Shown: in pieces, positions 10,440 to 55,249 of the stretch
How the letters are laid out: every line of letters starts with the position of its first letter
Numbering within the stretch: the stretch's first letter is position 1
Source: Tubiluchus corallicola
Lineage: Eukaryota; Priapulida; Priapulimorpha; Priapulimorphida; Tubiluchidae
NCBI GenBank assembly: GCA_030141605.1
Contig: JAQGDQ010000302.1
Coordinates: forward strand, 186,001-250,000
Direction of reading: 5' to 3'
DNA length: 64,000 nt
Made by a program: the position numbers and the translations under genes
Notes under the pieces: generated by a model
Told to the model about the DNA's origin: nothing
What the model saw: the letters and a program-made list of their open reading frames with translations, nothing else
The model's database searches: none

Positions 10440-10889
10440 CGCCTGAATTACGCGTTTGAATCCCTGATTCCACAATGTAATAGAGCTGCGTTTCTGCGGA
10501 GCAGATTTCCCTTTCTGGCGTAGAGAACTGGCTGCAGTTGCCCAAGAAGGCCTCACTTGGCTGCGAGAGATCCGATTACACATGGGAGTACCTTCTGTAC
10601 TGTCCACATCAGGAATGCTGATGCTGTCTGCTGCCATTGCCAAATTGCGACGTTTAGGAATGAGAAAATCTGGTTTGGCATTGTCACTGATCAACCGGTC
10701 CAACTTGGTCAAACTAAGAGCCACCAGACGCTCTTCGTAATCAATGAGGTGAGGTACCACAACAGTGGGCATGCTGACTGACCGTTCAAGATGGCGCGGT
10801 GTGAATTCTGGCTTGCGCACTTTTGGTGTAAGGTTGGAGATTGCCTGTTTCAGCGGAGACAAGAGACCCACAAAGGACACAAAATCCAT
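10440..10889 (-). CDS. UNC13: Probable alternative first coding exon of UNC13 (short isoform N-terminus)
   Basis: A 450-bp open stretch of 150 codons ending at CAGGCG|gtaagt in phase 0. The chosen start is ATAATAATGGATTTTG; an in-frame stop (TAG CAA GTG) lies about 45 bp further upstream, and no acceptor fits the phase of the long-isoform exon. The peptide begins MDFVSFVGLLSPLKQAISNL. It continues with a basic, Ser/Pro-rich stretch (PKVRKPEFTPRHLERS) and a probable helix (YEERLVALSLTKLDRLIS), and ends SSITLWNQGFKRVIQA. The end carries W-x3-F-x-R-V, the spacing of the UNC13 calmodulin anchor (WLEAYNKV at 31166-31349), just before a phase 0 donor. It can therefore replace the whole long N-terminus when spliced to the shared downstream exon. 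This parallels short Munc13-2 and short nematode isoforms. The downstream exon is unseen, so the link is inferred. Confidence 0.75.
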
Positions 10890-11905
10890 TATTATCACAG
10901 TGTAGCTAAGTTGATCTAGATCATTCACTTGCTAAACAACTCTGTTCTCTAATGAGTTCTTGAGTTCAAAAGAAGACGACTTCTGTGAAAACGTATATCT
11001 ACCAGTGCTAAACGACCACAGACAGCAGTCACAGTAATGGTTCTCAAAATAACGTGAAACGAAAACATTTCCACAACAAAGAAGGAAAAGCAACTCGTAG
11101 TAAGAAGAAATCACTATCAGGTGTATTCCATTCTCAAAAAAGAAATTCAGCCTTATGAAAAGACTTCACTTAGTTCGCTTATTGAATACACTTATTGACA
11201 TCAAAAACTCCTAACAAGCTAATCATTATGCATCAAATATGAAAAGCAACACCAATTAGCAACAGAAAAACGACAGCCACATTTTACAACTAATATACGA
11301 TTAATCGACAATATCGAAATGCTACATCATTGTTCAAATGTCTTACCAAAACACAATGGCTACAGTAACTTTGTAATTGTGTGTTATTAAGCTTGACATA
11401 TATGAACAATCCAGACTATTAAAATCTCAGATCATTGTTCTGACGCCCAGCCAGCGCATAAGTGATGCAATTACATTCTGCAATTACATTTACACGTAAT
11501 CAAACGTCATAAACTCAGCTGCTCTGACAGTCTTGTACGATACCACCAATTGAAGCAGTTAAATTCAAGTAAACGAAAAACCTGTTTGTTGCTATTCAAA
11601 AGGACTACACAGCATTAACACCTGGTATTGTGCAACCACTTTCAGACATGGATAGCTATTTTGCACTTAAAAACACAGATACCAGAACTTGATTATAATT
11701 CGAACTTGTGCAATTACAATTCATAATTCGCATTATGCACAGCACCTAATGCACTATATTCACGTCGAAACGGATTCCCTTGCTTCAACAATGCCACATC
11801 GTTAACAGTGTATCAGCTTACAGCGCGGACAGTACTGGCATGTATGCTTCATTCTCGCTATGTCCACACTAGACCGATTGTGTTTTATAAGCACGGAGGA
11901 GGCGA

Positions 11906-11998
11906 CTAAGCGCTCAATGCAAGTTCAGCATAGACAACACTGGCTTCATCACATGCAGGCTGAAACCCCACGCGGGCTTCAGCAGCAATGCCATCATG
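11906..11998 (-). CDS. Candidate terminal coding exon with ITIM-like tail
   Basis: After a good polypyrimidine tract and acceptor (TTTTGTATTTCTACTGCAG) a phase 0 frame runs 30 codons to a TAG stop. It reads HDGIAAEARVGFQPACDEAS then VVYAELALSA. Codons are GC-richer than the surrounding DNA. The ending V-V-Y-A-E-L fits the [ILVS]-x-Y-x-x-[ILV] pattern of immunoreceptor tyrosine-based inhibitory motifs, which often end the cytoplasmic tails of Ig-family membrane proteins. No upstream exon with a signal peptide, Ig fold or membrane helix was found. It is in a phase that could be joined to the 31166-31349 or 25127-25291 exons, giving a truncated product. The short length keeps confidence low. Confidence 0.25.
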   Translation of the reverse strand, partial: HDGIAAEARVGFQPACDEASVVYAELALSA

Positions 11999-12753
11999 CT
12001 GCAGTAGAAATACAAAAGATAGAAGCACATAGTGCAGTACTTGTGCTCAAAAGGCCAGCAGAGTGAACTATGCAGTTATAATAGCCAGAGATACTCAGAA
12101 ATATGAGAAATGAAGAAATAATCACGTATAACAGAAAATGAAACAGATAAACACTATCAGAATAAAACAGCACAACAGCCATTTTTTAATGTACTGTACA
12201 AAATTTGAGCATGATGCAAAGTGGTTCTGTAACAAAATATTTAACAGTCATTACTCCATCAGCTACTCAAGCACAGTTGGGCATCGCTTTCGTCCAAACA
12301 CATTTTTATCAGAAAAAACCAAAATTATGATTCACCAAGCAATTTATCTCCCGCGGTAACTAACACGTTTAGTTAGTCTCACGGAAGCACGCCATCAGCC
12401 TCCCCCCCCCCTCCGCCACCAAGTGAGAAATAATACAATGCAAGCAGCTGTATACCGAATGGCAATTACAGTTACAATTGAAAAATCAGTCTGTTACCTA
12501 TGTTCGTTACAAAAAGTAATTTTTAGGCAAAATTCACAATGACAAGGATTTTACAGTTTAACAGAATTAACTTAACCATAGTATTCTCTAGTTGACAGTA
12601 TGCCCTCCTGTGACTTTGCAATTACAGCACTACCTGTGTCAATAACTGTTACAATGTATTATTACCATTTAACGATATTTTTACATTAAAATATTACCTA
12701 ACTTTGAAACCATATGTATATTGTGTAGGTATGTATATTGTCAGCCTTAGACG

Positions 12754-12925
12754 TCTAAAGGAAGACAGGATGATTTTTGATATACTACCCCATTTTCAAG
12801 TCCGATAAAAAGTGTACATTTTAACACGATCCATACTACGTTTTGATAATTTAATAATAGATATAAATCTTAGTTAACAGCGGGCGAGCCCAACTATTGA
12901 TGACATCACAAACTAACAATTTTTA
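12754..12925 (+). repeat. Dispersed repeat (AAAGGAARACAGGATGATTTTT family), copy 1
   Basis: It shares its beginning (CTAAAGGAAGACAGGATGAT), a middle ATTTTCAAGTCCGATAAAAAG and a later AACAGCGGGCGAGC stretch with 63714-63885, same orientation. No coding potential or inverted ends are seen, so the class is unknown. Confidence 0.7.
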
Positions 12926-14884
12926 ACACCAAAAATATTCCAACAGCGTGCTGCAGGTGTTTGCGAAAGCGAAAACTGAAGTACAGTGCTACTATAAGGT
13001 ATTCAGTGTGTTCTACTAAAACTAGGCAAGTTTTAAAATAAAAATTCAAATTTCAAATTTCCGCTGTGGTCACGCGTGAGCACTCGAATGTGCGTAGTTC
13101 GTCAGAAACTAACACATCTGAACTGACAGTACGGTACCTGTTTTTGTGTAATGCGTTTTGAAATACAGGCACTAGTGCCCGTCTAACTAGCGGCGAAATG
13201 CATGTAACAGCGAAGAACTAATGGCGCAAACGCGAAATTGTGTTTGGGTAGTAACAATTCTTTCACGCAAGTGTGTTCCCTTTCAATATTCTAAAGAGTA
13301 GATTGTTCTGACCTACAGTTGTAAGATCGGGTCCGGTTTTGCTTTAATGTCATTTAGTCTGTTGTAGTGACTCTTTTGCTGGATGTACAGATACAAACTA
13401 ATTTATATTTCCTTTAATATAGTTGGCTAGATTTCGTGTGCTAAACTGTTCATTTGAATTACACACAGTTCATTATTAGTAAATGCTTGCAAAAAATGTG
13501 CATTATCGTTGGAAACACTTGCGTACAATAAGGTATGAGGGAAAAAAAGACAAACATATAGACTTATGCAGTGCACAAAGGAACAATTTCTGTCTCTGTA
13601 TCATTTAATGCATATTTTGTGGCGGTCCAAGAATTCTGCTCAGATTCTCGTACGTTAAAACATGGAAAATCAGGCAAATTTGTTGCCTGCCCAAAAAATG
13701 AGTCAAGCTGAAGGTTGGTTACAAAAACAAGATTCGTAAGGATAGTTTTGAATAATGGGACAGCACATGAAAATCGATTCAAGCTTTTATAAGTTTACAT
13801 TAAAATAACGAAAATACTGCTACCAGTTGGCATTTCTAATGATTTGACGAAAATTACTGTTGATCTTACTAAAATTCTCTTTTCTATGCATAAAATTTTC
13901 TATTAATGTAGTATTAAATGCTAACAATTAATAGGAATTCCTTTTCAGGCAGTAGAAACTATGCATTAATTGGATTACACAAAATTCACTTTGAACACTA
14001 GAAATTTATTTGAAACAGTAAATGAATTTTACTTTAGCAGAGCAAGAAAATTGATGTTATGGCACATTCAAGACAAAACTCACCAGATGACGTAACAAAA
14101 CCCCAAAAAGTCGAAGTTTTTTTCAAGTTTAAATATAGTTCAGCATCCATGTGCACAAATATTAGTTTCTGTGTCGTTAATTAGTTAACAGAATGGGAAA
14201 AGGGTCATCAAATCATAACCCAATGATGACGATTGTGTATATAATCAAATAATCACAGTGCGAAGTTCATCAGGCCGCCCAAGTTGGCATTATCCGGTTA
14301 CCATGCTGCACCATTAGTCATTCATTCCCATTTAACGTAAACTCCATTTATTTGTATAGTAAATGATAAGTTGCCATTTGACTTGCGAGAAGAGGATCAG
14401 ATACCAATTACACGCCAAAATCTCATAATCCTCAGTGTAGAGATGGAGAGCTTCGTCAGATGGAAATGAACGCGTTAACTGTGCAACATCAAAGGCGTAT
14501 TTCAAGTAGAACGACCAGCAGTACATCAGTGGTAATGGCAGAAATCTTTTTGACAGATATGAGTCAATTCTATCAGCAAAGAAATTGCTGCGTAAAATGC
14601 ACAGGAATTCCTTGAAGTAATTTTACCAATAGCAAACATTAAAGGCATTTTTTATGGTTTGCACAAGTATTTTGTGCAATTGCAAATAACTTGCCTAGTT
14701 TCGCTGCAACAGCAAACGTGCAATTACCGAGTTTTTCCACAATGTCTTTGTTATGATCTTTCGAATTAACCAGGTCTCCCTTGACAATAATTAAAAATAA
14801 AAGCATTCACAGTTAGTACGTGTGTACAACTGGTTACAAATGCAGCTGATTTGGGTGTACAAATTATGCTCACGTCAACTTTAG

Positions 14885-15017
14885 TTTACAGGAAATAAAT
14901 TTTATTCAAGAATGATATTAATATAAACTTTACAGGAAATAAATTTTATTCAAGAACGATATTACTATATACTTCACGGAAATAACTTCTATTCAAGAAC
15001 AATATTACTATATCTCA
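14885..15017. repeat. Three tandem copies of a ~44-bp unit
   Basis: The unit TTACAGGAAATAAATTTTAT, followed by TCAAGAATGATATTAATATA, is repeated three times with growing divergence (third copy ACGGAAATAACTTCTATTC). Confidence 0.85.
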
Positions 15018-16837
15018 CAGTTTGAAAGTTACCTTGCAACTGCATTAAGTAAAACGAATTTGTTCTCTGCAACTAATACAATTGACAATACTCATCTAAT
15101 CAAATGTGCTGAGATTAGCTTCTAAGTGTTAGCTTAGAGTCACTTAATAATTTAGCTTCCAAAGTTTGTTTGAGTAATTTGCATGATAGGTTGTGGTCTT
15201 GCCAGGTACGTGGAGCAGTAGTAAATGGAATGTCTAGCAACCAGCTAGCGGTAGCTAACTCATTTAAGGGCAAACACGTCCCTATTAGTTACAACCTGCT
15301 ACAGCCTGCAGGGGCGGGCACTGCTGTGAATGCTGACAGTCTAACCAAATATCAAATCCAACCCGGTCCCGTTAACTTAAGAACAGACACTGACTTCTAA
15401 AGTACCCGACCATTTCATGGGGAACTATACAATAACAAAAAAGTCATGCATGTGGCTTACCCTTGTGGGATTCTTTCATTACTCTTGTGAGCAACTATCT
15501 GCAAATTTATAGCAAATAGCATTTATGACAAATGATACCCAGACAAGGGAGATCAATGGCAAAAGCAAATCATCAAACAGCAAATGTTATTAGCGCAGAG
15601 GACGTGTGTTGTCCACATAATGAGCGTCCTCAAACAAACGCCTACGTATGTATGGAGATTAACATGATATAAAACATAATAAACAAGACATACAAGACAG
15701 TTTCAGCATGACTGTTACTCAAGACTGACGTCTGAAACATCCTGGCTATATTTCAATAGCTTATGTTAACACTGCTTCACAAGTTCCCCGACAAAAGACT
15801 ATTTTTTTGCAAGACAGCTTTCTTTAAGATACACTTGCTCAAGCCACTTTATTCAAAATTTAGAACTGTCAAAAGCTGCTGACGCTCCAAGAAAACACAT
15901 GGTGTCACAATGGCAAGTTCTATTCATCATAACATGTCATTTCTGAATTTGTTCGTGGTCAGCTATTTCTCTTCCTTCTATTAAATAATTTTAAACTGAA
16001 TTAATCGCACTTTTCACTAACGTTGCGTTAAACATGCCACTAATAAATATAAAGTTTACAAATTGCTAATGATGCACGTTATTGCAAATTCCAATTACCG
16101 AATGTGTAATGCTTAAGGACATGGCCAACTTTTCTCATCCAGAAGAATGAAGGAAGTTCTCTAAGAAGTAAATCAGTTTCCCAGCAGCTACGAAACGCGT
16201 AATTCCAGCCTTAAGCTTCATTGAAGCACTAGTAATAACGTGAAGAACATAAATGGAGTGTTCGACAAAGCTACATTAGACTAACAGTCCGATCCTTCCT
16301 TTCAAGCTTTTCTAGAAAATGTTCAATAGGTTTTGTTATAAGCCAAACGGTTAATAAGTTTTACAAGCCCTGTAAAACATTAAATTCCTCGGAACAGTTG
16401 AGTATAACCTATTGATACATTGATACCAAATTGATATAATCCAACAGCAAGTATGGTGTTTCTACAGCATCATGCTATACATTACACTACAAAATAGATG
16501 TGTCAACTAAAGAGTAATAATAGCCCTATTTTTTCATTGCACCAGCCTTGAAGGGACTACTTTACTTGCTTCTTTGTTGTTGTCATATACTTGTGTTGTT
16601 ATCGTTGTCCTTGTTGTTGCTGCTGCTGCTGCTCCTGCTGGCAGTGGAACGGCACCGGTAACAGGGAAAATGGTGATAGATTAAAAATACAGGCCCTTTA
16701 GAAAATGGCCAATAAACTACCTGACTATCCACGTAGACAAAGAGACGAATATCTTATCTTTCTACCCATAGTTAAACGTTATTAAAATCATCAGTTAATG
16801 GACTCAACATAATTATGGGACCGCATAAAAAGAATCA

Positions 16838-17000
16838 TATGCAGAAATTTGAAACAATTTCTTGTGAACTGATCCCTGTGAACTGTTCCCTTATATGACT
16901 TTTAACGTTCCAGGACGTGGCCACCAAGCCAGGCTCGGGGAAGCCGCTCTGACTTTCCAGAATCTGCTGAAGTGGAACTAATAGGAAAATACTGGGAAAA
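16838..17000 (-). other. Short GC-rich open stretch, unassigned
   Basis: Following a TTTTCCTATTAG acceptor-like site the frame reads VPLQQILESQSGFPEPGL, VATSWNVKSHIREQFTG, ISSQEIVSNFCI and stops. The composition is richer in GC than its surroundings. It could be a terminal exon of an unrecognised gene or part of a dispersed repeat. No motif supports either. Confidence 0.15.
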
Positions 17001-18420
17001 CGACAAGTGATTGTGTCAATTATCCAAATTTTAGGGAACAAAATTGGATTCTTCGAAGCGTTCTAACGCATACGCCATGCGTAGCAATTCTGAGTTCAAT
17101 CAGATTTGTCAGAAGCAAGTAAATGCAACTCAAAAGTAGCACAGCTAGACCTTGAAAACATTTGGTTTTGCTCCAAGAAAGGTCAAACAACTCAGCAACA
17201 AATAAAGTTTGCAAAAAAAGTCATTCAAGTGAAACTGTGCAGCAGAAAAAACATTTAAATAAACCGGTTCGAACAAATTCTATGTAACAGGCTCAGTCCA
17301 CCTATCAGTGCGCCGAAACGTCATAGCTGCAGCAGATTTTAGAAACAGCTCTGTCTCATGCTGTAACGGAAACAAAAAGTGCAAATTTGCAACAAATCTT
17401 CTTATTTCCGTGGAGAGTATAGTAATGGTCACCACCACGAAAGCAATATCTATAATATTATTGCCAATACCAGCGAGGAAAAAAAGCTACATGCAGTTTT
17501 GGCAACAAATAACATCCCCGTGCAGCCACGATTCCCCGTAAAACCATCCAATGTTGGCTCACTGATCCGCTATTGCTTTTATTACCAGCTGCTTGTGTAA
17601 AATTGATTGTACAGTTTTGTAAAAGCCGTGCACAAACATTAGTAGTCGACCAATTTTCCTTTTAAAGCCAAAAAATTAAACCAACTACTGCAGGCAGCTT
17701 AGAAGCCAGGCTTTGATGTTTTAGATTGCGTAATAAATTGTGCTTGATAGTAGTAAGGCTTCACGCAATAATTTAATTGTCAGCATTTTCCAGGGATAGC
17801 ATGTTTGAACCACGTGAGTTCCGTTTAGTAAGTGTAATAACAAGACCAAAAACCATCAAACAAAAAAGAAAGAAATATAATTTGTATTTTTCTGACGATT
17901 TTAAACTCTTATATCATCTTAATCTTAAATGCTCAAATGAATAGCAGACAGAAATTCTGGTCAAGGGCACGGAAAAACTTTTAAGAAAATCACCAATTAT
18001 ATATTTAATCCTTTCAAGCAAGACTTGAACTTTCAACTAAGCCACGTGCGGAAATTTGGGATCTAGCAAACTACCGGGATTAGAGTTAAACCGTGTGTTC
18101 TTTTCACAAATACATTCTGCTCGCGTTTTGCACGACAAGTTTCATTATCACCTTATGATTCAAAACTCAAGACGCTATTGTTTAGAGCTCTAGCTTGTTG
18201 GGATTAGGTAAGATTTATTGGGATTTGAATACCCCACTTCATGACATGAATGATAAACGTTTATTAATCAATGAAGTGTAGTTGCTCATACGAGTGATGG
18301 TTGCAGTTTCTGCATGATCTACCACGTTTAGCATTTACTACAGAGGATGGACACAAGCGAATATTTTTAATCAAACAAGTAACTTACTGATTACTCAGTT
18401 TATACAAAAACAAGATGTTA

Positions 18421-19100
18421 AAGGACAAGAAAAGAGGTACCTGAAGTAGGTTTGAGAAAAATCGCCTTAAAAATTATATTACTTTACAGCAATTTTATGC
18501 ACATATCGTACCCGCGTTGAAAGAATTTTTCGTTTGTTTTCATTTTAAAGCTCCCGCAATACTGTTCCGACCGCGCTATTGCGTAACGCATATAAGCACA
18601 ACGTAAATCAGCGGAAGAAAAGGAAATGTCCCCAAAAACTTTCCACGTAAACTTATATAACTTAGCATTTCGTTTACCTGCTTGAAAGACTTAGGTAACT
18701 AGAAAAGAAAATTATTAATTATTCAAAATACTTTTCACCAATTGGTAAAAAGTCGTTGACTCACCCTCCAGGATGCACCACTCACTAACCAAAAAACGTA
18801 TTTTTAATCTCATTGACAAAATACAGTAATTTAAAATTTTACTTAGTGACGCGTGCGCTACGAATGCTCTGATTATTTTTTCAAACTTTACACAGTGTTT
18901 CCTAAACTTGTTTCAAATGACACCGTCAAAATGGCTGCGTCTAACAGTCATCGCAGGAGTTTAAATCTACTTTTTATAGAGCGTTACTGCCGACGCAAGT
19001 CCTGTATGCAAAAAAGGCAGTATGTAGGTGCTATAAAATTTCAAGACGATTTTTTTAAGTTTTATATAAGTGGAGGATTTTCTTGTGCTTTAAGTCTTAT
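18421..19100 (+). repeat. ~670-bp dispersed repeat, copy 1
   Basis: It matches 38768-39435 over its whole length in the same orientation. Shared blocks include GAAAAATCGCCTTAAAAATT, CACTCACTAACCAAAAAACG and ATTTCAAGACGA. Both begin AAAGGACAA and end near TTTTCTTGTGCTTTAA. No transposase or reverse-transcriptase coding is seen; it may be a non-autonomous element or old segmental copy. Confidence 0.85.
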
Positions 19101-19574
19101 GACAAAACATTAGACTTTATAACATTGGGTAGGCCAGTAGACGGTTCAGATAAGGTTTAGTAAAAATGTAGGCATAGTTTTTTAATGTATATGTCTCAAA
19201 TTATTTGCGATATAAAGGAACTGACAGTAATGTGTTTGAAAACCTCTACTGTAAATTCATTGTATCTCCACGTTTTCTTATGAAACGACAAGCACAGAAA
19301 TGAGCGAAATTACTTCCGGACACAGTGAAAATTCTCGTGTTATTTTAACCCAAGTGAAATGAAGCGGCAAGGATAGTGGTACCATGAAAATTTACTTTGA
19401 GGACAACATTAGGGCATAAATGTGCCAAATGTAGTGTACAATCCTTCCTTACCTTTGTGCATATTACACATGTAAAGGAAAACGTTTCCCTTACACCAAC
19501 GTGAAAGTGAAAGTTTCCATTTCACCAACAAAAATTGTGCTACTGCTACTTTCAGGTAATAAGAAACACCAATC

Positions 19575-20090
19575 TCTTATATTAATATTCTTGGTATATA
19601 TATTTATATATAAGATTCGAGGCTACAGCCCGGACGAGGGCACCATTTGCGGCGATCTATACATCAAACGAAAGGTCTCGATCTAGTGTCTTCTCATTGA
19701 TGGTTTATTTTTCGAATCGGGCCCACCGGGAGAAAGGGGAGGTGAAAAACCTCCAAAAATGCCCCTTTTTCGACCGTGTTTTGCAAAAAATTGCAAAAGT
19801 TATACGGCTGAGATGTAGAGAACGGGAACAGGCCGAGGGTGGTGCTGGGTATGGATAGATAGCCCGTTCAGCGGTGGGTGTAGAAGGCATATTTAGAATT
19901 CCCGAGAGGGGCAGGGCGCCCCGCAACGGGCGTTTTCCCGGACCCAACTTGCGATTTTTTCGAAATTTTGACCAAACAGCATGCGGGAAAAACGTTCTAG
20001 CGTCGCCCGGTGGGACTCTAGGAAGGAGATATATAGCTCATCAGAAAGAGGAAGGACAGGGCTACACGATGATGTGGGCTATATGTTTGA
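19575..20090 (+). repeat. GC-rich dispersed repeat, unknown family, copy 2
   Basis: The second copy, starting at CTTATATTAATATTCTTGG and ending near GATGTGGGCTATATG. It differs from copy 1 by scattered substitutions and short indels in the AT head and near a TTTTGCAAAA run. The open frame conserved in copy 1 is open here too (starting near 19874). The abrupt GC shift against flanking intron suggests an insertion. Confidence 0.75.
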
Positions 20091-21014
20091 TCAATTAATG
20101 CGCGAACACGGGCTTCGGTTCAGTTCAGCTATTTCCCTTATTTCAGCACAGGTACAATAATCAAAGAATGAATCCTCAATGCCATACCGTCTAATCGATG
20201 CTCTGGCCTTAATTTGGAAAGGCATGGTGAAAGTGCAGGGAAGCGTGAGACTATGACACTCAACACCTTCAGTAATATCAATAGCATGACGAACAACCTT
20301 CTACTCATATTAGTCTGTCATTTCTGCCATCAACCATTAACAATAATGACCAGAATGACCACCGCCAATGCTCGTTTTGGGTGTACACCCATGAGTATTT
20401 GCGGTATGTTGTACTGTGCGTTAAGAAGAAGATGCTGAAGCGAAAGCGTAAGGGAGAACAGAAATACTTTCAGTAATATCAACCCCATGCTTCATCAGAA
20501 TTTATAATTAGCGATGAGACAAAGTTATTACGGTGGTGTGCATACAGGAAGATTTGTGAAGGAATCAATACGACTTATGGATGCTGATATGATAATCTAT
20601 GGCTGCATAATTACAGGAAATAAATTCCTTGTTATAAATTTCAAACTGCAAATGAAGTATGGGTCTTTTCACCGTCAAAGCTTTCCCGCGCCCCAGGGAA
20701 GCATTCATTCGCCAGCATATTATGAGCCAGGGCACTCAGGGCTGGCTAAGAATACTAACGAAATCCATCCAGTCACAGATCCATCACTTTTTTCTCATAA
20801 GACAACCAGAGTCTTACAGAAACTAGTTAAACCAAGTCAATTTAAGTAAACAGCCTTGCTCAGGAACTCAGCAAATAAGCAACAAATTACCCGAAATTTC
20901 CAGCCGGTCTCGTTGCGTTAGACCTCATTCTCTCGTGAAAACAATTACAATACTGCGTAAACAAGGAGGGCTTTTTTAGCAATTTTCTTGCGTTTGAAAT
21001 CAGAAGTACAACTA

Positions 21015-21588
21015 CATGCACGTATGAGGTAAGAATTTGTAGCGCAGCTTGTAAGTTTACTGTTTGACTTCGTTGCATGTATCAGGTAAAAATTTGTAGC
21101 GCAGCTTGTAAGTTTACTGTTTGATTTCGTTGCATGCATCAGGTAAGAATTTGTAGCGCAGCTTGTAAGTTTACTGTTTGACTTCGTTGCATGTATCAGG
21201 TAAGAATTTGTAGCGCAGCTTGTAAGTTCACTGTTTGATTTCGTTGCATGCATCAGGTAAGAATTTGTAGCGCAGCTTGCAAGTTCACTGTTTGATTTCG
21301 TTGCATGTATCAGGTAAAAATTTGTAGCGCAGCTTGTAAGTTTACTGTTTGATTTCGTTGCATGTATCAGGTAAAAATTTGTAGCGCAGCTTGTAAGTTT
21401 ACTGTTTGATTTCGTTGCATGTATCAGGTAAGAATTTGTAGCGCAGCTTGCAAGTTCACTGTTTGATTTCGTTGCATGTATCAGGTAAGAATTTGTAGCG
21501 CAGCTTGTAAGTTTACTGTTTGACTTCGTTGCATGTATCAGGTAAGAATTTGTAGCGCAGCTTGCAAGTTCACTGTTTGATTTCGTTT
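21015..21588. repeat. 57-bp tandem array, 10 copies
   Basis: Ten head-to-tail copies of a 57-bp unit containing CAGGTAAGAATTTGTAGCGC and CAGCTTGTAAGTTTACTG. Copies differ at only a few positions (TATCAGG/GCATCAGG, GTAAGA/GTAAAA, TTGTAAG/TTGCAAG). Because 57 is divisible by three, a 19-residue repeat (ATKSNSKLTSCATNSYLIH) stays open on the minus strand. The flanks give no sign of a gene, so the frame is probably incidental. Each unit holds a CAG|GTAAGA splice-donor-like word on the plus strand. Confidence 0.95.
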
Positions 21589-22054
21589 ACTCCCAGCAAT
21601 TTATAAAGGCGTCAGTCTGCGGTTCGTTATACAAATAGGCAGCTAATCAGCTGGACGCCCATTACATGGCAAAACTGTCACAATCAGATGCCCGAACACA
21701 AAGGGATAAGTGTTATCCAGAATACCAAGCTGAAATGAGCAGTGAAGCTTCCAACGATGGTTTCTGAAGCCATACAGCTAAGTGCAATCGCTCTCAATAC
21801 CAAAGTGGAAGATTAATGGAAAAGTTCGTCAGATTTCAACCGCAATCTAAACACAGATCTAATGATCATGTAAATCAGTGTCTGGCGTGAAACACTGCAA
21901 TTTTGTTCACAATCGTTTAAGCAGTCAGTGACCGAGCAGCAGTTTCAAGCAAATTCCGCAGGCCATTTCCGAAGTAAATTCTGTTTCGAATACGAACTCC
22001 TCCTACGGCGCCTTAGCATGTAAATCACGCAACAAGAAAAACCTTTGACTAGAA

Positions 22055-22572
<518 letters not shown>

Positions 22573-25126
22573 GACTAGAAGCTGCGCTTGTAAGCACTGG
22601 GTGAAAAGATGAACTAACAGATGAACGCTCAAATGTAATCGGCGAGAGTGGGAGTACGACTCCAGGGATTTCTCAATGAGACTGATTCCTGACTCAATGT
22701 AAAAGGTTCATCGCTTTTAAATTTCTGTGAAAAAGAAGTGATAAGATACCAAATAGAAAGATAAACTGTAATAATATATAAATTAAAAAATTAAAGCACG
22801 TTTATATCTTGTGAAAACTTTTTAAGTTTATCACTTCTTGATAATATGGGAACTTTTTAGTGGTTTACACAGCATGTTACCAAGTTGAGAGCAAATATCC
22901 TAACCACCCAATCAAAATGTCATGTGCAAAATCTCGTCTTTAAAAAGAAGTCTGAACTTTATATTTCCATGTGCAATTCCTTGTTTGTTACTTAAATACC
23001 ACCCAGTGCACGGAATGAAAGGACGCACACATAGGAACTTTTCCAATAAAGAAATAAATTTACTTCAAATTTAACCCCAACCTTGTTTAGTCAAAATAAA
23101 AATTAGGACGCTTTCAGTAACATATTATTCAGTTTAGTATTGTAAAGCGGCAAGGTACAAGCTATCTAAATTAACATAAATTACAGTATGATAAAACAGC
23201 AGAAATACATCCAGTAAGACAACAAGCGCCAAAATGATTGTGATAAAGCAATCAACAGTGATTTTTGCTCAAAATTAATAAGCAACTTCAATAATTTTAA
23301 CTGCAACAGCCTGGCAATTTATGCAAAATCGCGACAAAACGACGATTTTCATCTAACCAAATGTCACAGTAAAACGAAAATTCCTTGTGTGTAATGAAGG
23401 ACTCCAGGAAATAACCGAGTGAACAGCTTAGTGGTCATGGTATGTGCTTCACTGAGTAAGTAGCGAAAAGTCTGGATATTAAATTGTACTGTAAATGGAT
23501 GGGCGACAGCTGAACGGTTTTACCCATCATGCTTCCAGTTTATCTCTCGTTGAGGTAGTGTGTACCATGAACGTGCAAATGTGGCTAATACAATTGTGAT
23601 AATTCAGAGCATTTATCTTGATACCATCAACAAAACAGTTTTAATAAAATAACAAGCACACTTAGCATAGTATGTAAAAGACAAAATTTGAATTTAAAGC
23701 AAAAGTATTAGGTATATCCTTACAAACAGCTACACACAATTAGCAACCTTCAACTATATTGACTCTAAAAGTAAACAGTTAGCAAAATTTTATGTCACAA
23801 ATAGAGTGCCAATGGCTTTTACCTGTCCAACTTCTCACTAAAATCATACCAAAGCGCTACAAAATTCCTAAAAAATTCATCAGTTGACTATACTTGTGAT
23901 TTTTGTTTAGCACTCAACTATATGTGTTACAGTAGAATATTGCAAATCCATCAACTACAGTTAGTAGATACTAAAACTAATACATAGATGATTTCAAAAG
24001 ATATTTCTATTATTACTAAACAAGTGATAAAATTAAAAACAACACTTGAATTGAAAGACGTTTACGACTCTAAACAAACTGTCATATTTGATTATTCTTT
24101 GCAATTACTTGATTGGTCTTCAGAAAGTAACCACCAGAAGCTGCCAATCATTCAAGTAGAGATTCTCTATGGTTTAATTACCACGTTCCTCATTTCTAGG
24201 TTTCATAGCAATTTTACTTCAACAAGATAAGTTAGCCATCCAGTAAACACGAAACTCCAAAAAATAAATTTTTGTAGAAAAAACTAAAGAACTGCTGAGA
24301 CTTACAAAATCAAAGTTACAAAGTTAGTCAATATGGCAAGGTTAGACAGACACAGGGCTCCAAATTACGTATTTTATACTTGCGCAAGGAAAAAGATTAA
24401 AACCGTAGAAAAACATTATTGAAATCATGCCTATCAAATAGCGACTGCCCAAAATTAGGAATACAGTGGTGGATCATTGTGGTGGTGACGATGGTGATGA
24501 TGATCATGATGATCACCGACGACTAAGGAGTGACTGCCCCTATTCCTTAGTGACAAACAAATGTACATTTGTCACCCAGTATACTTTGCCATACAGTCTC
24601 TATATAGAGAGAATAATAACACCACAACTCAAAGGGTTTATTAAAATTTTAATTACGTGCATAGCATTTCGTGGCAATTTCAAAGTAAATATTCTCACAG
24701 GAAAGTGGCAATCGATTTTCTAGAAGCCAGCAGTGACCAATGAACACAGCAAGAAAAATAACAGAAGCCACTCTGTCAGAAATCAAACAGGCCGTTAGCG
24801 CCATCTATGGCGAAAAACGAGATATATTTCTACTAGGATGAAAGTAATTTTCTATATTTCTATTTGACAATTGCCCAGCCATGTTACAATCTTTTTTATG
24901 CAACTTGATAAAATTCATGCAACTCACTAAACTGGAAGTTGGGACAACACCAAGACCTACTACCAATATTAATAGTTTTGGCTAAACCAAAAACCTAGCT
25001 AATTTATAAAAAGATATTCCTTCGAGGTGAGATTGGTAAACTGCACAGGTGTCTTCAGTTTTTTTGGGGATGCATTTTAATCTATAACACAAATATAAGA
25101 GCCTGAACAAAACATGCATAACTTAC

Positions 25127-25291
25127 GTAGCTTAAAGTAACATTCATTCTAACGTCTTCCATTTCTAATGTTTTAACACAATCACTCTGTTCCTCTCGTA
25201 TAAGTTTCTTTTCACCATTATTAATCTCCAAAGCTGCAGCAGTTCTACCATCCTCAAGGATACCTGATTTCTCCCGATCAATATCAGACAT
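25127..25291 (-). CDS. Candidate short first exon (MSDIDREK...), unassigned
   Basis: Fifty-five codons from ATAATAATGTCTGAT to AGCTAC|gtaagt, ending in phase 0. The peptide is hydrophilic and acidic (MSDIDREKSGILEDGRTAAA, later REEQSDCVKTLEMEDVRM) with no recognised domain. No acceptor upstream gives an open frame compatible with a phase 0 join, so it fits a 5' exon better than an internal one. It lies between the long-isoform exon at 31 kb and the alternative exon at 10.4 kb, on the same strand and with the same donor phase. It could be a third UNC13 N-terminus or the start of a nested gene. It may also be a chance open frame beside a chance donor. Confidence 0.35.
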
Positions 25292-26348
25292 TATTATGCA
25301 CAACCATGAGGCAAAACTGCTTCACACAACGAGTAAAGTTGATGCATACAACCAGGATATTAATATAAACCTAATATAAGCATAACATTACCCATACTCA
25401 AAACACTCAATATAAACTGTCAATAAAATTGCAGCGCTGCAAACAAGCATCCTGAGCCTGTTTCCTGTGAATGAATGCTTAGGACTGACATTTACCAGTG
25501 TATTATAATTATTACCAACAACATCCTATCTTACACTTACCCTACATTTAGTACAAGCAGAACGTAACTGTGTCGCACAAAAACATACAACAAGCTGAAG
25601 ATTTCAGATTAACTGGTTTTCCTCAATTTTTTCATTTCAAGTCCAATCACTATGTCGTTGAGGAGTTGTCTGACATTAACTTTTAAAAATTCTCAACAAC
25701 CATACAGTAAATAACAGCACACTTATTGAATTATCGAGGCAAAATATTGGAGATCATACATCTGCCAATGAAATTTACGAACCTAAACTACTGCTGAGAG
25801 TTTTCTCTCTACCACGTGTGAAAACGATACCCCAATTTCTCTTTCAAGAAACAACTTGATCAACTTGTATTAGTAAATCATATTCAAAGTAGCCACATTT
25901 ATTCAAAGTATACAACTAAAATCCTGTTAGGTTGGCAATGGTCTAAAACTTTAAGTATTTGAAAATAGAATACGTTAAAAACTACTTCAACAAATACTAA
26001 ATGTAGTACGCATGAATATGGTTCTAAAATTACTTAATTACAATTACTAAAACAGTTACCTACTTTGCTGTTTAGTTACTTAATCACTCAGTAACAATGG
26101 GATTCTACCCCAATGGACAGCCTTGATGTCAGACCATCAATGTCAGATTTCATACTACTGAAAGCAAATGGCTGTTAACTGAATTAGCTAGTGACTGTGG
26201 GATAAAATGCCTTTTGAATAACGACTGTTTGATGACCTTTGACTTCAATCGAGATTGGAGGTTAACCCAATTCTTGGAGTGTTCACTTCTGGTGGTCTTG
26301 GCATACTACTGCATAAAGATAATACACTTTAACTAGCTAACATTGACT

Positions 26349-26744
26349 TCAGAAAATCTGTGACGTACTATTCTGTTTTGCATGCATTTCCATTCTACAC
26401 AGAACTAATTTAAATATTTCTCTTCGGACATATTTTGGATTACCCCCGTTTTGTAACCTTTCACCTTTTTCCCTATCACCATCTGAATCTATAGTCATCC
26501 TATGACCGACCCTTATGTTTCTGTAGATACTGTCATTCATGACTTTCACACAAGAGTCATTTTCTGTTCTTGCATATTGGCGTGGGTGCTGATCAACTTG
26601 GGCAAAAATCACAAATTTTTCATTAAATAAATGCTCATATTTATGTGCTACATTACGCAAAATTTTAAATTTTGTTGAAAAATGATACCAGTCTTCTTCA
26701 AAACTTACTTTAATAACTTTGCCCACATAACGCCCTAAAAACAT
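26349..26744 (-). CDS. Unassigned open reading frame, 131 codons
   Basis: An uninterrupted frame unusually long for this AT-rich intron. It includes GKVIKVSFEEDWYHFSTKF, KYEHLFNEKFVIFAQVDQHP and MTIDSDGDREKGERLQNGG. A TTTTTAG acceptor-like site sits just inside its start (near 26706). Donor-like sites are seen at KVIK|gtaagt and at CGGGG|gtaatc. None of these joins in phase with neighbouring UNC13 exons. The peptide is not recognised. It may be an exon of a nested gene, a degraded insertion, or chance. Confidence 0.25.
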   Translation of the reverse strand: MFLGRYVGKVIKVSFEEDWYHFSTKFKILRNVAHKYEHLFNEKFVIFAQVDQHPRQYARTENDSCVKVMNDSIYRNIRVGHRMTIDSDGDREKGERLQNGGNPKYVRREIFKLVLCRMEMHAKQNSTSQIF

Positions 26745-27964
26745 TAAAAATAAAGGAGCTTAATTCTCTCTGGCCCACTAATGTTATTATTAAGCTCACT
26801 AGTCACTACAGCAGAATAAGTGATCAGCATTGTACAGCCTTAACTTTGTCACTGATAAGTAGAGTCAGATGAACTGATCAAGGAATACACCAAGAACAAG
26901 CTTTGCATGAAACAACATTTCATTTAAAAATGTCTAATGTTTGGTCTATAAACCATTAAATGTTGTCAACACGTTTCTCACGAAAACAACCAGCAATGCT
27001 ATCCCCTATACTACAGACCCTTCTCAAGTAGGACACAAGACATTACTGTGACTGCTTCTTGCTTGCTTATTTGTAAGCACGAATGTTTAAAATCCTAGAT
27101 AATTTAATCAAATGCCACACAAGTCACACCTGCTGTTGCCTGCATCATGAATAAATGCCACATAATGTATAGCCGTGAATCACAGACATAATACCTGCAT
27201 CATCCAGCCATGTAATAAAAGCAACCTGTATGCCTGACTCACACATCAGTGTTGCTTAAAAATGCTTCAGCAACGTCTAGGGTTGATCAATTTACTATCC
27301 AAATATCAAAAGAGCAGAGGAAAAATGGCAAACACAATTCAAACAAATGTGCTAAACACTGGATCATTTGCAAAAACAGAAAATAGAGTACAGACACACA
27401 TGCACCATTGATGGCAAACAAACCCATATGATAGATAAGTATGCTAGTCAAAACAAATTTCAAATTAAAATTCACATTAAAAATACATAAACCCACAAAA
27501 TCTACATCTGCATCTAAGTATTAAACGACTTTTCCAATTCGTATTGCATTAGCCAAATGTAATTATGTTCGTATGTTGTGACATATATTGTTCTGTAATG
27601 TATAAATACTACACTCAGGTTATATCTCTGGAAACTAAGAAATTCTTATTTTCATGCAACTGATTACCTTCTTGAAACTATAAATTTTCATCATATTTCA
27701 ACATGAATTTAGCAGCATCCACTGTATACATAATTGTTTGTTGCATTAAATTAGTCTAACATTTAAATGTTATTATAATTATGCCATAAATGAGCATCAT
27801 TTTGATTACAACGGGAGGCAGCTAATTAAGTTATCTTAAGGTTTGTTCACAGCACATTCATTTCACTAATTTTGAAGTTATGTTGCAATGCTTGCAATGT
27901 GCTTTAGAAATAAATGAACTTTATTTCCTTATTAACAAATACAAATGTACTAAGTATGAAAATT

Positions 27965-28008
27965 ATTAATTAATCAATATTAATACTTATTAATATTGAT
28001 TAATTAAT
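27965..28008. repeat. AT-rich inverted repeat, 20-bp perfect arms
   Basis: ATTAATTAATCAATATTAAT and its reverse complement are separated by four bases. Confidence 0.95.
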
Positions 28009-29224
28009 GATTTTCATTATTTAGAGAACAATTAACACAAAAGTGATTCAAATCAGTCAGCAATTAACTTTAATAATCTAACATGTTGAAAATCTCAGAT
28101 GGTTGTTGTATTGCCAATACAAAAAATATCTCCTGAGAATAGAGATTACTGGCAGACTCCTCAAAAATTAGCACAAGACAGAATTTTACACCATTTTTTC
28201 TTTTTTAGTTTGTAACTTTCTGTAAATTTAGTTTAGTATATCAGCTTAGTACAGAATTTAGAAGTTCTTTTACGAAAACTTGAGAATTCTATTAAAGTGT
28301 AACTACTAAAAAGTATATTTCATCTCCAAAATTTCATGCTAATAATTACACCAACACCAATGACATGTAGCGCTAGCACAATAAAATATCCCAATTCTAT
28401 TTGTAATAATACTCAGCATCTGTGTGTGAATTTTCTAACATAGTCAAACATTGGACCCTTTGATTCAATCTCAACTATAACCTTACTTGAAATAATTCCA
28501 AAAAGCTCAATTCGATGAGGCAAAAAACAAACTACACTTTTGTTGATTGTTATCTATACAGTAGAAAACCTGTTGTTAGGTTTTTATTTTTTCAACTGAA
28601 TCACGCATTCCGACTCCACGCAGTCAAAGTTTATACTACACACTGACAGAATTTACAATAAAAACAATTCAGCTCACAAATATTCAAATATTGAAGAACA
28701 AGAAATGGATTTATGGTTTGTGACCCAACTTAGTTTACTTAAAACAGCTCCTAGTGATACGACAATTTATTGAAACATACATAATTCCGTGCTGATGCTT
28801 AGTGCCTAAGACTTTCCACTATGACAACAACAGTTCATAGATGATTCACCACTCAGTTATTCCAGATTTGAATTCAATTCGAATAACTTATTTACTTACC
28901 AACCACAAAATGTTTCAGTAAGCATACAGAAGCAGTGTTTCTTTTGTTTGCTTATAAGAAGCCGCATACACTACAATTAGCTTTTCATGTTTTCCAAGCC
29001 ACCGGAAATTAAGAAAGAAATTCTAATAAAACTGGCAACTCCAGGTTCTCAACACATTATACAAGCAGTTGACCTGGTCTTGACATGTTGACAATTTTTT
29101 CCATAATAATGTTCTTTGCTGCATTCAATTATGAAAAATTCTGATACACATGCTGCCCATGTCTATGCTATGTCATCATGAAAATAGCAGCAAGAAATCT
29201 CAAAACTTCATTACCTTGTTCTTT

Positions 29225-29660
29225 TTAAGTTGATACTGGTGCCAGTTCTTAAAAACTGAGTGTTACTTTTTTCAAACTGATAGTACAGAAAACTCTTCCG
29301 TCTGCAAGCGTGATTTGTGTTAATGTCAATTATTCCAATTTTATGAAAACATTATTTTTGAAAAGTTGGTGCTGGTATCAATTCTTGAAACCTCAAAATA
29401 TTAGTCTGTTGCAAACCAGTGCTGTCGTTAATTCTTAAAACATCAATTTTGTCAAAAGCATTACTTTCATTTAAATTGATATTGTGGTCAATCTTTGATG
29501 CTTCCCAAAATTAGTGTCCACAAATCTGGTACTGCTTTCAGTTCTTAAAATAAATTAGTGCTGTTGATAAATGTAGAAACTTCAAATCTTTAAGCTTTAT
29601 AAAATTGGCACTGCCATAAATTCTCAAAACTTTAAATAATTTGTACTGGTGCAAACTTCT
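29225..29660. repeat. Degenerate tandem-like array
   Basis: The theme TGGTGCTGNNNNCAATTCTTGAAAC, with a following TCAAAATTT, recurs roughly every 55-60 bp with heavy divergence (GGTGCCAGTTCTTAAAA, AGTGCTGTCGTTAATTCTT, GGTACTGCTTTCAGTTC). An old satellite-like block; limits are approximate. Confidence 0.5.
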
Positions 29661-31165
29661 GTTTGTTCAACGTACGCTTTACACACAACATTATGTTACA
29701 CAAGTATGTAGATGCTAGACTATACGTGTGATACATGCTGCGTAAAAAGATAACTTTCACATGATTTAGTCCGTTAAATGGGAAATGATTATGTGAAGAG
29801 TATAATACCTCTTAACGCTATGTGTATTGTAAGTTGCGAAAACGAAGTGCATAATAGTAAAGCGGTGCGTAGTAACCATTAAATTTTAATCTGCAAAATA
29901 CGGACTTGGCATGCTCACAGGTCATTAGCAAGGATGCTAAAGAAAAGTGCCGAAGCATTGATAATGCATGCGTGCACTCACAGCATAAGTGGCAAAAAAT
30001 GGATTAAGAAAAACTCAGGCCACGCTTTTGATTGGTAAACTTGGCGGGCAAATAGCTAAAGCAGCAGTCAATGGGTAACAAAGAAATCTCAGTGTCAATT
30101 ATTATTCAAAGCTCGTTAATCTCAAAACGCTAAAGGAATTGATGTGAATGGCATTCAGTTTCGACGTGTGAGATTTAATTCACAGGTATCATCAATATGA
30201 TGGAAAAAAGGCGTGGCCTAAGTGACACTTTGCAAGGCATACCTGTAAATCCATGTATAAATGGTCCTTTCCCTGGAAAAGCAACATTGGTTTAAAATTG
30301 GAGAAATAAACATAAAATGAAAAACTGAAACATCCATTACTTAACAGTCATCATGCCTTTTAAAGCACACACTTCAAAAGAAAAATCGGAACCATACTCA
30401 TTTTTATTTCAAAAACCCATTTTTCAAAACGATATCTTTTGTCATATTGCACAATTACAATCACACTCTCAGCAACCAAGCACTCAGCATAAGGAGGTAG
30501 CTATGTATCATTACAACACAGGTAGAAATCCTCACCCAACAAAAGCTGAAGATAACTATTTATAATTATGTAATGTCATACGTTACGAACAGGCGCAGAG
30601 CTTGAGACATCGTGAGACAAAAAAATACAGTAGACGAAAACAATATTACTTTATTTAATCATTCAAATGATATGACAGTTTTTCCCTCATCAATGATGGT
30701 CTTAGATCAACATTAAGAAGTGAGAGTGAACATCTAATGAGTGCAATCTAATACATTTTGAACAACTTAAATGCCAAAATTGCAGTCTGATGTTAATAGC
30801 TGGCAATAGAAATACCGTGGAGAAAATTCCTTTAAGATACCTAAAAACACTCGCCACATTTAGTCCTTTTCTGTAAGTAAAATTGTACTCAACTAATTCA
30901 TTAACAACATTGATAAGTTCCATTCTTTAGCTGTATATTTGATGAATTACTGGAGTAAATGTCGCAGTTTAAAAACAAAAGTTTATATCAAAATTTGCGC
31001 ATGGAAACTGTTTTTGTGTCAGTGCAAGAAACAAACAAGAAACATGCGTGAAAACAAACTAATTAATAAAAACTTACTCTCGCCAAAGTCCCTTAAAACA
31101 TTATCCAAATAACAAATCCAAAAAATATCAGTAAACTGTATTACATATAAAAAACCACAACTTAC

Positions 31166-31349
31166 CTCACTAAGTTGACTACAAACTTTGTTGTATGCCT
31201 CAAGCCATCGTATTTTTGCAGGAGAAGGCGTTCCCGGAGTACCGCGAGTTCCCTGAAGTGCAAAATTTCTCTCTCCGGGCGGTACAAGCGAGTCACTATA
31301 GTCCTGAGTACTTTGCCTGCTCAAAGTGGTTGAAACACTTGCCATTGGA
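31166..31349 (-). CDS. UNC13: UNC13 exon ending in calmodulin-binding-like motif
   Basis: A 184-bp internal exon with acceptor TTTCATTGTAG and donor GAG|gtaagt, ending in phase 0. The peptide starts PMASVSTTLSRQSTQDYSDS, passes a Gly/Pro/Thr-rich stretch, and ends SPAKIRWLEAYNKVCSQLSE. The C-terminal W-L-x-A-[FY]-N-K-V pattern matches the Munc13 calmodulin-binding site (recalled WLRAFNKVRMQLQE in Munc13-1), where the Trp and aromatic residues are anchors and binding tunes short-term plasticity. The following family exons (linker to the C1 domain) were not found in the remaining 31 kb and are probably beyond position 1. Confidence 0.93.
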
Positions 31350-32290: not shown

Positions 32291-32532
32291 GCATACTATT
32301 ACAATGTCATGACTACTTAATTTCATAGGATGTCGCTGCATAATGCTTCATTAGGTGTCAGGGTTCAAAACTGTACCCTCCTCATGGCACCCAAATGTCA
32401 ATTCCGCTATGGCATACTATTACAATGTCATGACTACTTAATTTCATAGGATGTCGCCGCATAATGCTTCATTAGGTGTCAGGGTTCAAACCTGTACCCT
32501 CCTCATGGCACCCAAATGTCAATTCCGCTAAA
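32291..32532. repeat. Head-to-tail duplication of a 121-bp unit
   Basis: Two nearly identical copies (32291-32411 and 32412-32532), starting GCATACTATTACAATGTCAT and ending AAATGTCAATTCCGCTA. Only a couple of differences (GTCGCTGC/GTCGCCGC, CAAAACTG/CAAACCTG) are seen, so the duplication is recent. Confidence 0.95.
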
Positions 32533-35220: not shown

Positions 35221-35888
35221 CTGTCTGGCAGTAGTGAATGCTGCCGACCATTAGGACGACTGTTGTAGGACAGTGGCTCCATCTCAATATCACTACGTCC
35301 AGAATGTTCATGAATAGGCACCATCTGGTCATCACTCGGTTCATACTCGTCTCTGTACCGCAAATCACTTTTCACAAACCCAAACTCGGGTCGCTTTGTG
35401 AACTCGGACAAGGGTTCATCCTCAAACTCACTGATGTGCGCAAGACCAGAACCAACACGCTCTTGCTCATCATCGTAGAACCCTCGCTCTGGAAAATCGC
35501 CACTGTCCTGCCGCTGGTAGTACTCGTCCTCATCTTGCTCGGCAAACTGGTCAGTTTCATATTCGCCGTACTCGTCCTCATACTCATCCATAAATTCGCG
35601 GTCTGCAAGTTCCGGAAATTCTGATGAGCCAAGCTGGTCGGCATCATAGTCTTCCTGATTATGGTAGTATGGATCATCATCATAAAAATCACGATTTAAA
35701 CTGCCCTGATCCCCCTCCACCTCCAAGTCGGATGGGTATTCAGGTGGGTAATCTTCTTCCGGTGGGTAATCTTGATCGTATGATCTTCCAAATGACGAAA
35801 CACGCTCAAACGAGTACTGCTCGTTGTACCTCTCATCAGAGCCTTGTTTTTCCAGCGAGCCATCCTGGTAATCACCATATGATGTATC
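35221..35888 (-). CDS. UNC13: UNC13 exon: acidic, tyrosine-rich linker
   Basis: The largest exon seen (668 bp; 222 codons plus two bases). Acceptor CCTTGCAG precedes GATACATCATATGG and the donor is GACAG|gtaatt. By count about 67 of 222 residues are Asp or Glu and about 21 are Tyr. The core includes stretches such as DEYEDEYGEYETDQF and EQDEDEYYQRQDSGDF. No folded domain or membrane segment is visible. Its position between SVHQY and the calmodulin-type motif matches the acidic, poorly conserved linker of the long UNC13 isoforms. The split codon AG|T (Ser) joins it in frame to the 31166-31349 exon. Confidence 0.92.
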
Positions 35889-35984: not shown

Positions 35985-36109
35985 CTGACGTGAAAGATAA
36001 GGGCGACTAGTAGCACTGCGATACTGATGAACAGATGTATTGTGCTGGTGCTGATGCGGAATAGGATAGTTGATATCACTGGTGTAATCGGAATCCTCTG
36101 ACATGCCAG
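35985..36109 (-). CDS. UNC13: UNC13 exon: conserved SDSDY / SVHQY linker segment
   Basis: A 125-bp internal exon with acceptor ACATTTCAG and donor CAG|gtatgg. It encodes SGMSEDSDYTSDIN, then YPIPHQHQHNTSVHQY, then RSATSRPYLSRQ. The elements DSDYxS, the Pro-rich bridge and N-[AT]-S-V-H-Q-Y match the disordered linker of vertebrate Munc13-1 between C2A and the acidic region (recalled DSDYRSETSN...NASVHQY). Such strong conservation in a disordered stretch points to a binding or phosphorylation site. It is separated from the next exon by a 96-bp intron, the shortest in the gene. Confidence 0.94.
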
Positions 36110-50887: not shown

Positions 50888-50958
50888 CTCCTGATCCATG
50901 ATGGTGTTTAGCACTTCCAACTTTTTCTGTAACTCACGCGCCTCTCCTTCTTGCAGAT
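50888..50958 (-). CDS. UNC13: UNC13 exon: post-C2A helical linker
   Basis: A 71-bp internal exon. The acceptor is TTTTCTTGTAG before ATCTGC, chosen over the nearer CTGCAAG because it alone keeps the frame from the upstream exon. The donor is GAG|gtaatg. With the borrowed G it encodes 24 residues, DLQEGEARELQKKLEVLN followed by TIMDQE, ending in phase 0. The pattern EEEAR..xKKLExLNxxxDQ is the conserved helix that follows C2A in Munc13/UNC-13 and is predicted to be amphipathic or coiled. The exon lies 3.6 kb from the C2A exon and 5.3 kb from the next exon. Confidence 0.93.
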
Positions 50959-54565: not shown

Positions 54566-54689
54566 CTAATGGCAGTTCAAAGCGTGCATCAATAAGAAGC
54601 GTGAATCCTGTTGGAGTGTGTGTGCCAACAACCTCTCCACCCCTCATCACTAGCTCAGCATCCATAGACAACCATCTACCTTGCCCTTC
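54566..54689 (-). CDS. UNC13: UNC13 exon: C-terminal part of C2A domain
   Basis: Internal UNC13 exon separated from the preceding one by only 442 bp. The acceptor is TTTTTTCAG and the donor is TTAG|gtaaat. It contains 41 codons plus one base. The peptide [15 protein letters not shown], then [16 protein letters not shown], then IDARFELPL finishes the C2A beta-sandwich. The family landmarks are the SNE-EGxGxWLxxDxE junction, the GTxxPTxHxxLxDxRFELP block, and the exit into an acidic helix. The last base (G) combines with AT of the next exon to give Asp, producing ELPLD as in vertebrate Munc13-1. Frame, splice sites and sequence agree, so the assignment is firm. Confidence 0.95.
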
Positions 54690-55131: not shown

Positions 55132-55249
55132 CTCATTAGAATGTGGTATCTTGATCAGTGGAAGCCAATGATAACCTAGTAGCTTATCCCACAACATGCC
55201 CTTGTTCCATAATTCGATGATAAGACCCGCGTCCAGGCGATTGGTTTCA
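55132..55249 (-). CDS. UNC13: UNC13 exon: middle of N-terminal C2A domain
   Basis: Internal exon of the presynaptic vesicle-priming protein UNC13/Munc13. It starts after a TTTCAG acceptor and ends at GAG|gtgaga. It carries one base of a split codon plus 39 codons. The peptide reads [17 protein letters not shown], then [14 protein letters not shown], then IPHSNE. This corresponds, from memory of the family, to the Munc13-1 C2A stretch EINRLDLGL...EVWNKGLIWD...WIPL...SNE. C2A mediates homodimerisation and binding to the RIM zinc finger at active zones. The visible half shows no aspartate cluster of the kind that binds calcium, as expected for C2A of this family. It joins in phase to the exon at 54566-54689. 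The exon for the first half of C2A (ending in two bases of a Phe codon in the family) was not found up to 64000 and is probably outside the window. Confidence 0.95.

Follow-up and report, generated by a model that had tools for sequence, protein, structure and literature searches.

Alternative N-termini of UNC13, a synaptic-vesicle gene, are known in mammals, flies and nematodes (PMC7017353, PMC8762327, PMC3743133). In Caenorhabditis elegans unc-13, the long N-terminus is encoded by exons 1-13 and ends with the calmodulin (CaM) region (aa 556-610); a promoter in the intron that follows exon 13 drives the short form, whose N-terminus of 259 aa comes entirely from exon 14. The C2A domain of the long form anchors it at active zones, and release is accelerated by its CaM site. 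The short form is diffuse, and a protein made of the common region alone resembles it in location and kinetics (PMC3743133). A later worm study described an inhibitory role for the short N-terminus (PMC11991699). Mammalian UNC13B gives rise to the splice isoforms ubMunc13-2 and bMunc13-2, and in each of the four mammalian Munc13 isoforms CaM binds ahead of the C1 domain, at a comparable position and through different motifs (PMC7017353). A review of the fly system places a CaM site in Unc13A and describes the Unc13B N-terminal part as having none (PMC8762327). Here we analyzed 64 kb of the priapulid Tubiluchus corallicola genome (contig JAQGDQ010000302.1, positions 186,001 to 250,000; hereinafter referred to as the window), in which the minus strand carries the 5' portion of an animal UNC13 gene. 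An exon at 10889-10440 of this window (hereinafter the short exon) probably encodes an alternative N-terminus of the gene, with a probability of about 65%.

The short exon sits 20 kb downstream of the exon that carries the CaM site of the long isoform (hereinafter the CaM exon), both on the minus strand. It begins with its own ATG at 10889 (A at -3 and G at +4), preceded by an upstream in-frame stop, and its last coding base is 10440, where the translation ends ...ITLWNQGFKRVIQA in phase 0 at a GTAAGT donor. The CaM exon ends at a donor of the same type and phase, and both exons carry the motif W-x3-[FY]-x-[KR]-V before it. A first-pass annotation of the window had placed both exons where we found them and had noted their motifs and donors and the ATG and upstream stop of the short exon.

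The stop-to-stop frame of the short exon spans 198 codons. Frames at least this long had a mean of 0.03 per shuffled window (100 shuffles), and none of 400 locally shuffled 1-kb pieces contained one. Its GC content was 0.50, compared with a background mean of 0.346, and was reached in 23 of 3630 overlapping background windows. The codon score was -0.072 against a null mean of -0.400 (standard deviation, 0.098), a value matched by 13 of the 3630 background windows, and the real exons of the gene, left out singly, scored from -0.117 to 0.251. In length, GC content and codon use, the short exon looks coding.

Acceptor sites were scored with a model built from the six UNC13 acceptors of this gene, which themselves reached 4.6-11.2 in a leave-one-out comparison. 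No AG between 10890 and 11100 scored above 2.3. The in-frame acceptor AG at 10931 is purine-rich (35% pyrimidines, compared with 65-82% in the six UNC13 acceptors), and no AG above 10934 could start an internal coding exon in this frame, since translation would then run into the TAG. Given the coding-like character and the weak 5' acceptors, a first exon is the best reading of 10889-10440. The alternative, an internal cassette exon or a mutually exclusive exon that makes up this stretch or lies within it, is improbable. Several AGs would suit it in phase: the one at 10931 would open an exon of 492 nucleotides with phase 0 on both sides, those before 10844 and 10514 (65% pyrimidines each) would open phase-0 exons of 405 and 75 nucleotides, and the one before 10560 (59% pyrimidines) would give an exon of 121 nucleotides with the same phases as the CaM exon. 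However, none of these four scored above 0 on the acceptor model, and the best internal AGs, at 10531 (6.3) and 10594 (5.8), are out of phase with the donors of the CaM exon and of the exon preceding it, fitting only a phase-1 donor such as 54566.

The long-isoform content of the window comprises the second half of C2A, the acidic linker and the canonical CaM site, encoded by six minus-strand exons that run from high to low coordinates (Table 1). No exon for the beginning of C2A was located. When joined, the first three exons matched the C2A domain of UNC-13 homolog A (2cjs_A in the PDB) with an E-value of 4.8e-32, so that the gene has a UNC13-type N-terminal C2A; the acidic linker is followed by a CaM site of the W-x3-[FY]-x2-V type, as in UNC13 long isoforms. 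The CaM exon has 184 nucleotides, follows the acceptor TTTCATTGTAG, starts in phase 2 and ends in phase 0. Its CaM site is identical to the Munc13-1 CaM peptide (PDB 2KDU) at 12 of 20 residues, with identical 1-5-8 anchors. The PDB-wide E-value of this peptide match alone was a weak 0.98, and the identification of the site therefore rests on the gene context, namely the C2A match. Exon phases agree at the joins that can be checked, for instance from 54566 to 50958 (phase 1 to 1), except between 50888 and 36109: the former exon ends in phase 0 and the latter starts in phase 1, so that one or more exons lying between the two were missed. A Munc13-1 sequence served as the query for tblastn and for the segment scans described below. 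About 1 kb upstream of the CaM exon, a 121-bp unit occurs in two adjacent copies (32291-32530; 98% identical).

Table 1. Exons and related features of the UNC13 locus in the window.
Feature	Positions	Strand	Evidence
C2A exon	55132..55249	-	Translation ends ...PHSNE; tblastn against Munc13-1, E = 9e-11; acceptor and GTGAGA donor
Exon with the end of C2A	54566..54689	-	Translation ends ...RFELPL; tblastn, E = 4.5e-9; PDB match; splice sites
Post-C2A exon, DLQEGEARELQKKLEVLNTIMDQE	50888..50958	-	tblastn, E = 0.008; the 2cjs match of the joined query extends through here
Linker exon, GMSEDSDYTSDINYPIPHQHQHNTSVHQY...	35985..36109	-	tblastn to the Munc13-1 linker, E = 0.001, in a single alignment with the next exon; splice sites
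Acidic-linker exon	35221..35888	-	Open reading frame of 232 codons; entered in phase 0 and left in phase 2, compatible with the CaM exon
CaM exon, ...SPAKIRWLEAYNKVCSQLSE	31166..31349	-	12/20 identity to the Munc13-1 CaM peptide; splice sites; phase-0 GTAAGT donor
In-frame TAG upstream of the ATG	10932..10934	-	15th codon upstream
Candidate first coding exon (150 codons) for a short isoform of UNC13, end LWNQGFKRVIQA	10440..10889	-	Open reading frame; phase-0 GTAAGT donor; codon score; weak 5' acceptors
Trp-anchored, CaM-like 1-5-8 end, WNQGFKRVIQA	10440..10472	-	Motif count against shuffles; helix 136-149 in a low-confidence model

Counting the Trp as position 1, the donor follows motif residue 14 in the CaM exon and residue 11 in the short exon. 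The motif W-x3-[FY]-x-[KR]-V occurs twice in the six-frame translation of the 64 kb, both times before an in-frame phase-0 GTRAG donor. In 60 shuffled windows, the mean was 0.83 for the strict motif and 0.03 for the motif with a donor, the latter never more than once. Since the strict motif had been derived from both exons beforehand, the comparison of 2 with 0.03 overstates the excess. With wider definitions (40 shuffles each) the excess shrinks and then vanishes: W-x3-[FY]-x2-V before a donor was observed twice against 0.07 expected, Trp with any 1-5-8 hydrophobic residues before a donor four times against 2.1, and any 1-5-8 motif before a donor 55 times against 56.3, which is the chance frequency. 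The short exon has the hydrophobic anchors W, F and V at positions 1, 5 and 8 of the 1-5-8-26 motif of Munc13, and a structure model of it made without relatives (mean predicted local distance difference test score, 45.6) places a low-confidence helix at residues 136-149, at the CaM-like end. The likeness between the two exon ends is real but thin, and does not establish that they share an origin.

Comparison of 13-residue windows placed the CaM exon much nearer to Munc13-1 (7 identities; BLOSUM62 score, 37) than to the short exon (2; 14), and the short exon shared 3 identities each with Munc13-1 (14) and bMunc13-2 (10). Helical moments were not outstanding, the fraction of shuffles at or above the observed value being 0.049 for the CaM exon, 0.085 for the short exon, 0.174 for Munc13-1 and 0.004 for bMunc13-2. 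Two further points weaken the reading of the short-exon end as a CaM site. Both donors cut the motif before position 26, so neither exon holds a whole Munc13-1-type site, and in the best local alignment of the short exon to Munc13-1, which spans the CaM region, the Trp of WNQGF stands opposite W26, not W1. Binding of CaM by the end of the short exon is possible, though less likely than not.

A number of results weigh against the short exon as a UNC13 first exon with a CaM site at its end. Open frames of at least 150 codons are not rare (0.37 per shuffled window), the codon score was trained on a small set of 425 codons of UNC13 exons, and one of the other frames here, although interrupted by 12 stops, reached a marginally higher value (-0.017), so that the score is no frame-specific proof of coding. 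Upstream, the AGs at 11042 and 10958, before the stop, have 76% pyrimidines each, and a leading non-coding exon upstream of 10889-10440 is possible. The best match to the 11-residue Munc13-1 core within the short exon is WATAASSLRQK, about 24 residues earlier than WNQGFKRVIQA, with 79 of 2000 shuffles as good; the best place for the bMunc13-2 core also lies away from the end (375 of 2000 shuffles). Ten tests found no significant similarity of the short exon to the fragments of Munc13-1, bMunc13-2 and Munc13-3 compared, or to the CaM exon of the window. At gap -11, the score was reached by 16 of 500 shuffles for Munc13-1, 214 for bMunc13-2, 184 and 78 for the two Munc13-3 pieces and 51 for the CaM exon; at gap -8, the respective numbers were 21, 292, 17 and 86, and 23. 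The lowest results, 16/500 and 17/500, do not survive the number of tests made. Searches of genome_contigs (67 pattern matches) and viral_contigs (2 matches), collections unsuited to animal genes, confirmed no relatives of the short exon. Moreover, exons for C1, C2B and early MUN were not found anywhere in the window by tblastn and segment scans with Munc13-1, later parts of the protein not having been searched for.

In addition, a PDB search with the short frame (166 residues with flanks) returned only an unrelated weak match (E = 0.2). The assignment of the short exon to UNC13 comes from its position, strand and phase alone. Among the best six matches per segment in any frame, the post-CaM segments SLWFKGG, SMPD..KPIPLV and LIYP..C1 of Munc13-1 gave nothing convincing; a match of the SMPD segment on the short exon itself (score 29, second of the six listed) was not significant and was rejected. 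A Pfam scan covered the minus strand of four blocks (1-9900, 10000-19899, 21800-31699 and 54000-63899; about 39.6 of the 64 kb) and found no other gene there, only pentapeptide-repeat matches that arise from a simple repeat, and five families that stayed under their cut-offs. The simple repeat, 54 copies of GTTTA at 3369-3638 (99% matching), yields these spurious matches when it is read in frame with stops as glycine. The same scan found no C1 on the minus strand of 1-9900, but this silence means little, because it also missed the known C2A exons in 54000-63899 and is insensitive to split domains; tblastn, which did find C2A, is the better control for the missing C1, C2B and early MUN exons. 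Rfam and tRNA scans of the window found none.

The absence of homology and of a shared exon in view, together with the frequency of open frames of 150 codons in shuffled windows, would also suit a frame that is open by chance, or a first exon belonging to some unrelated gene. The 198-codon frame, the GC content and the codon use stand against this, as does the lack of another gene in the Pfam scan, insensitive as that scan is, and we consider such an origin of the short open reading frame unlikely. A closer competitor differs from the favored reading only at the exon end: the short exon would be a true short UNC13 N-terminus, and its W-x3-F-x-R-V end would be no CaM site, having arisen by chance or corresponding to the W26 region or to the FKKTLQA helix before C1. 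This is quite possible, at a little under even odds, and being a variant of the favored model it shares part of the probability given to that model. Generic 1-5-8 motifs stand before donors at chance frequency, the best local Munc13-1 alignment sets the Trp opposite W26, the best ungapped core match falls on another Trp, and FKRVIQA resembles the FKKTLQA before C1 in Munc13-3 (gap -8; 17 of 500 shuffles). In addition, CaM sites are reported for the long worm form and fly Unc13A, and Unc13B is described as having none (PMC8762327). On the other side are the strict motif with donor, found twice where 0.03-0.07 are expected, and the binding of CaM just before C1 by all four mammalian isoforms (PMC7017353).

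The first-pass annotation had proposed that an alternative promoter swaps C2A, the acidic linker and the CaM site as one block. This holds in part: the long exon has a canonical CaM site and the short exon behaves as a separate first coding exon, but no shared exon was found in the window and the short exon showed no significant similarity to the UNC13 fragments compared. Starting from the exons, motifs, phases and strand observed, we infer the promoters, the joining to shared exons and the function as follows. A first promoter, outside the window or above 55 kb, would produce the long isoform with C2A, acidic linker and CaM site, and the short isoform would start from another promoter, located in the intron that follows the CaM exon, with 10889-10440 as the only coding exon specific to its N-terminus. 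The two N-termini would share downstream exons for C1, C2B, MUN and C2C, situated past the window's left edge and joined in phase 0. By analogy with the worm, the swap would remove C2A and the rest of the long block and so alter placement at the active zone and the tightness with which release is coupled to calcium entry. A hydrophobic helix able to bind CaM may be retained in front of C1 by the end of the short exon, as in bMunc13-2 and Munc13-3, and calcium sensing of the short form via CaM would then depend on WNQGFKRVIQA and the next exon. With donors at motif positions 14 and 11, a common next exon is predicted to bring any anchor at position 26 nearer by three residues in the short isoform.

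In its fullest form, this proposal states that in this lineage the two N-terminal forms of one UNC13 gene each have a CaM site anchored by Trp in front of C1, that calcium/CaM control of priming is kept while the active-zone-targeting C2A is exchanged, and that the shifted spacing (11 versus 14 residues) to a shared position-26 anchor in the next exon would retune the same calcium sensor; taken as a whole, it is unlikely. Should the short exon prove to be a UNC13 N-terminus equipped with a CaM site, the presence of such a site in both forms would represent an ancient or recurrent trait of UNC13 genes outside mammals too, and the short form could be examined directly for plasticity that depends on CaM. 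Otherwise, the locus adds another example of the long/short UNC13 arrangement studied in worm, fly and mouse.

The window also contains several repeats. Ten head-to-tail units of 57 bp (about 95% alike) at 21017-21587 are open within a 213-codon minus-strand frame; they form a small satellite and are unlikely to be a gene. A degenerate TGTGG-type repeat occupies about 1 kb at 6783-7761, where the GC skew is very strong (0.57 for the 2-kb bin concerned). Two dispersed repeats are present in two copies each, one of 490 bp (5850-6330 and 19597-20088; 92% identical, same orientation) and one of 690 bp (18417-19093 and 38764-39432; 83% identical). A large palindrome, perhaps a foldback element, lies at 51281-51511: this 230-bp stretch, arranged around a TA run, is an 82% match to its reverse complement. 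A 109-codon plus-strand frame at 4787-5116 contains YGLNSFRYSAAVLWNKLPNDIRNA, a putative tail of a long interspersed nuclear element (LINE) reverse transcriptase.

Among known systems, C. elegans unc-13 resembles the present locus in being a single gene with a long block of C2A and terminal CaM region (PMC3743133). A one-exon short N-terminus between the CaM exon and the common region would be a further likeness, the common region here presumably lying past the left edge of the window. The two differ in that the worm short N-terminus has 259 aa, compared with 150 codons here, and the accessible text of PMC3743133 gives no CaM site for it. Further, the worm long block runs 36 residues past the mutated anchor F574, whereas here the donor lies 13 residues after the Trp. 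Compared with the Munc13-1 site (2KDU), the position-26 anchor is outside the long exon here. As with Drosophila Unc13A and Unc13B, one locus would provide two N-termini for a common C-terminal half (PMC8762327). The mammalian ubMunc13-2/bMunc13-2 pair likewise derives different N-termini from one gene, each with a CaM site before C1, the second site being only a candidate here (PMC7017353). Position 1 of the bMunc13-2 site is Leu or Ile, not Trp, the site extends on both sides of FKNV, and the isoform-specific N-terminal part is far longer, with the CaM peptide at 703-742. The first-pass annotation had regarded the duplicated anchor in this lineage as the point of interest; N-termini that each keep a CaM site before C1 are already described in mammals, although the bMunc13-2 site lacks the Trp (PMC7017353). 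No report of a Trp-anchored CaM site in an invertebrate short UNC13 was found among the literature matches listed, subscription journals being mostly beyond their reach. The long/short arrangement itself is already known from worm, fly and mammals, and a Trp-anchored CaM site on the short N-terminus would be its mildly new element in T. corallicola.

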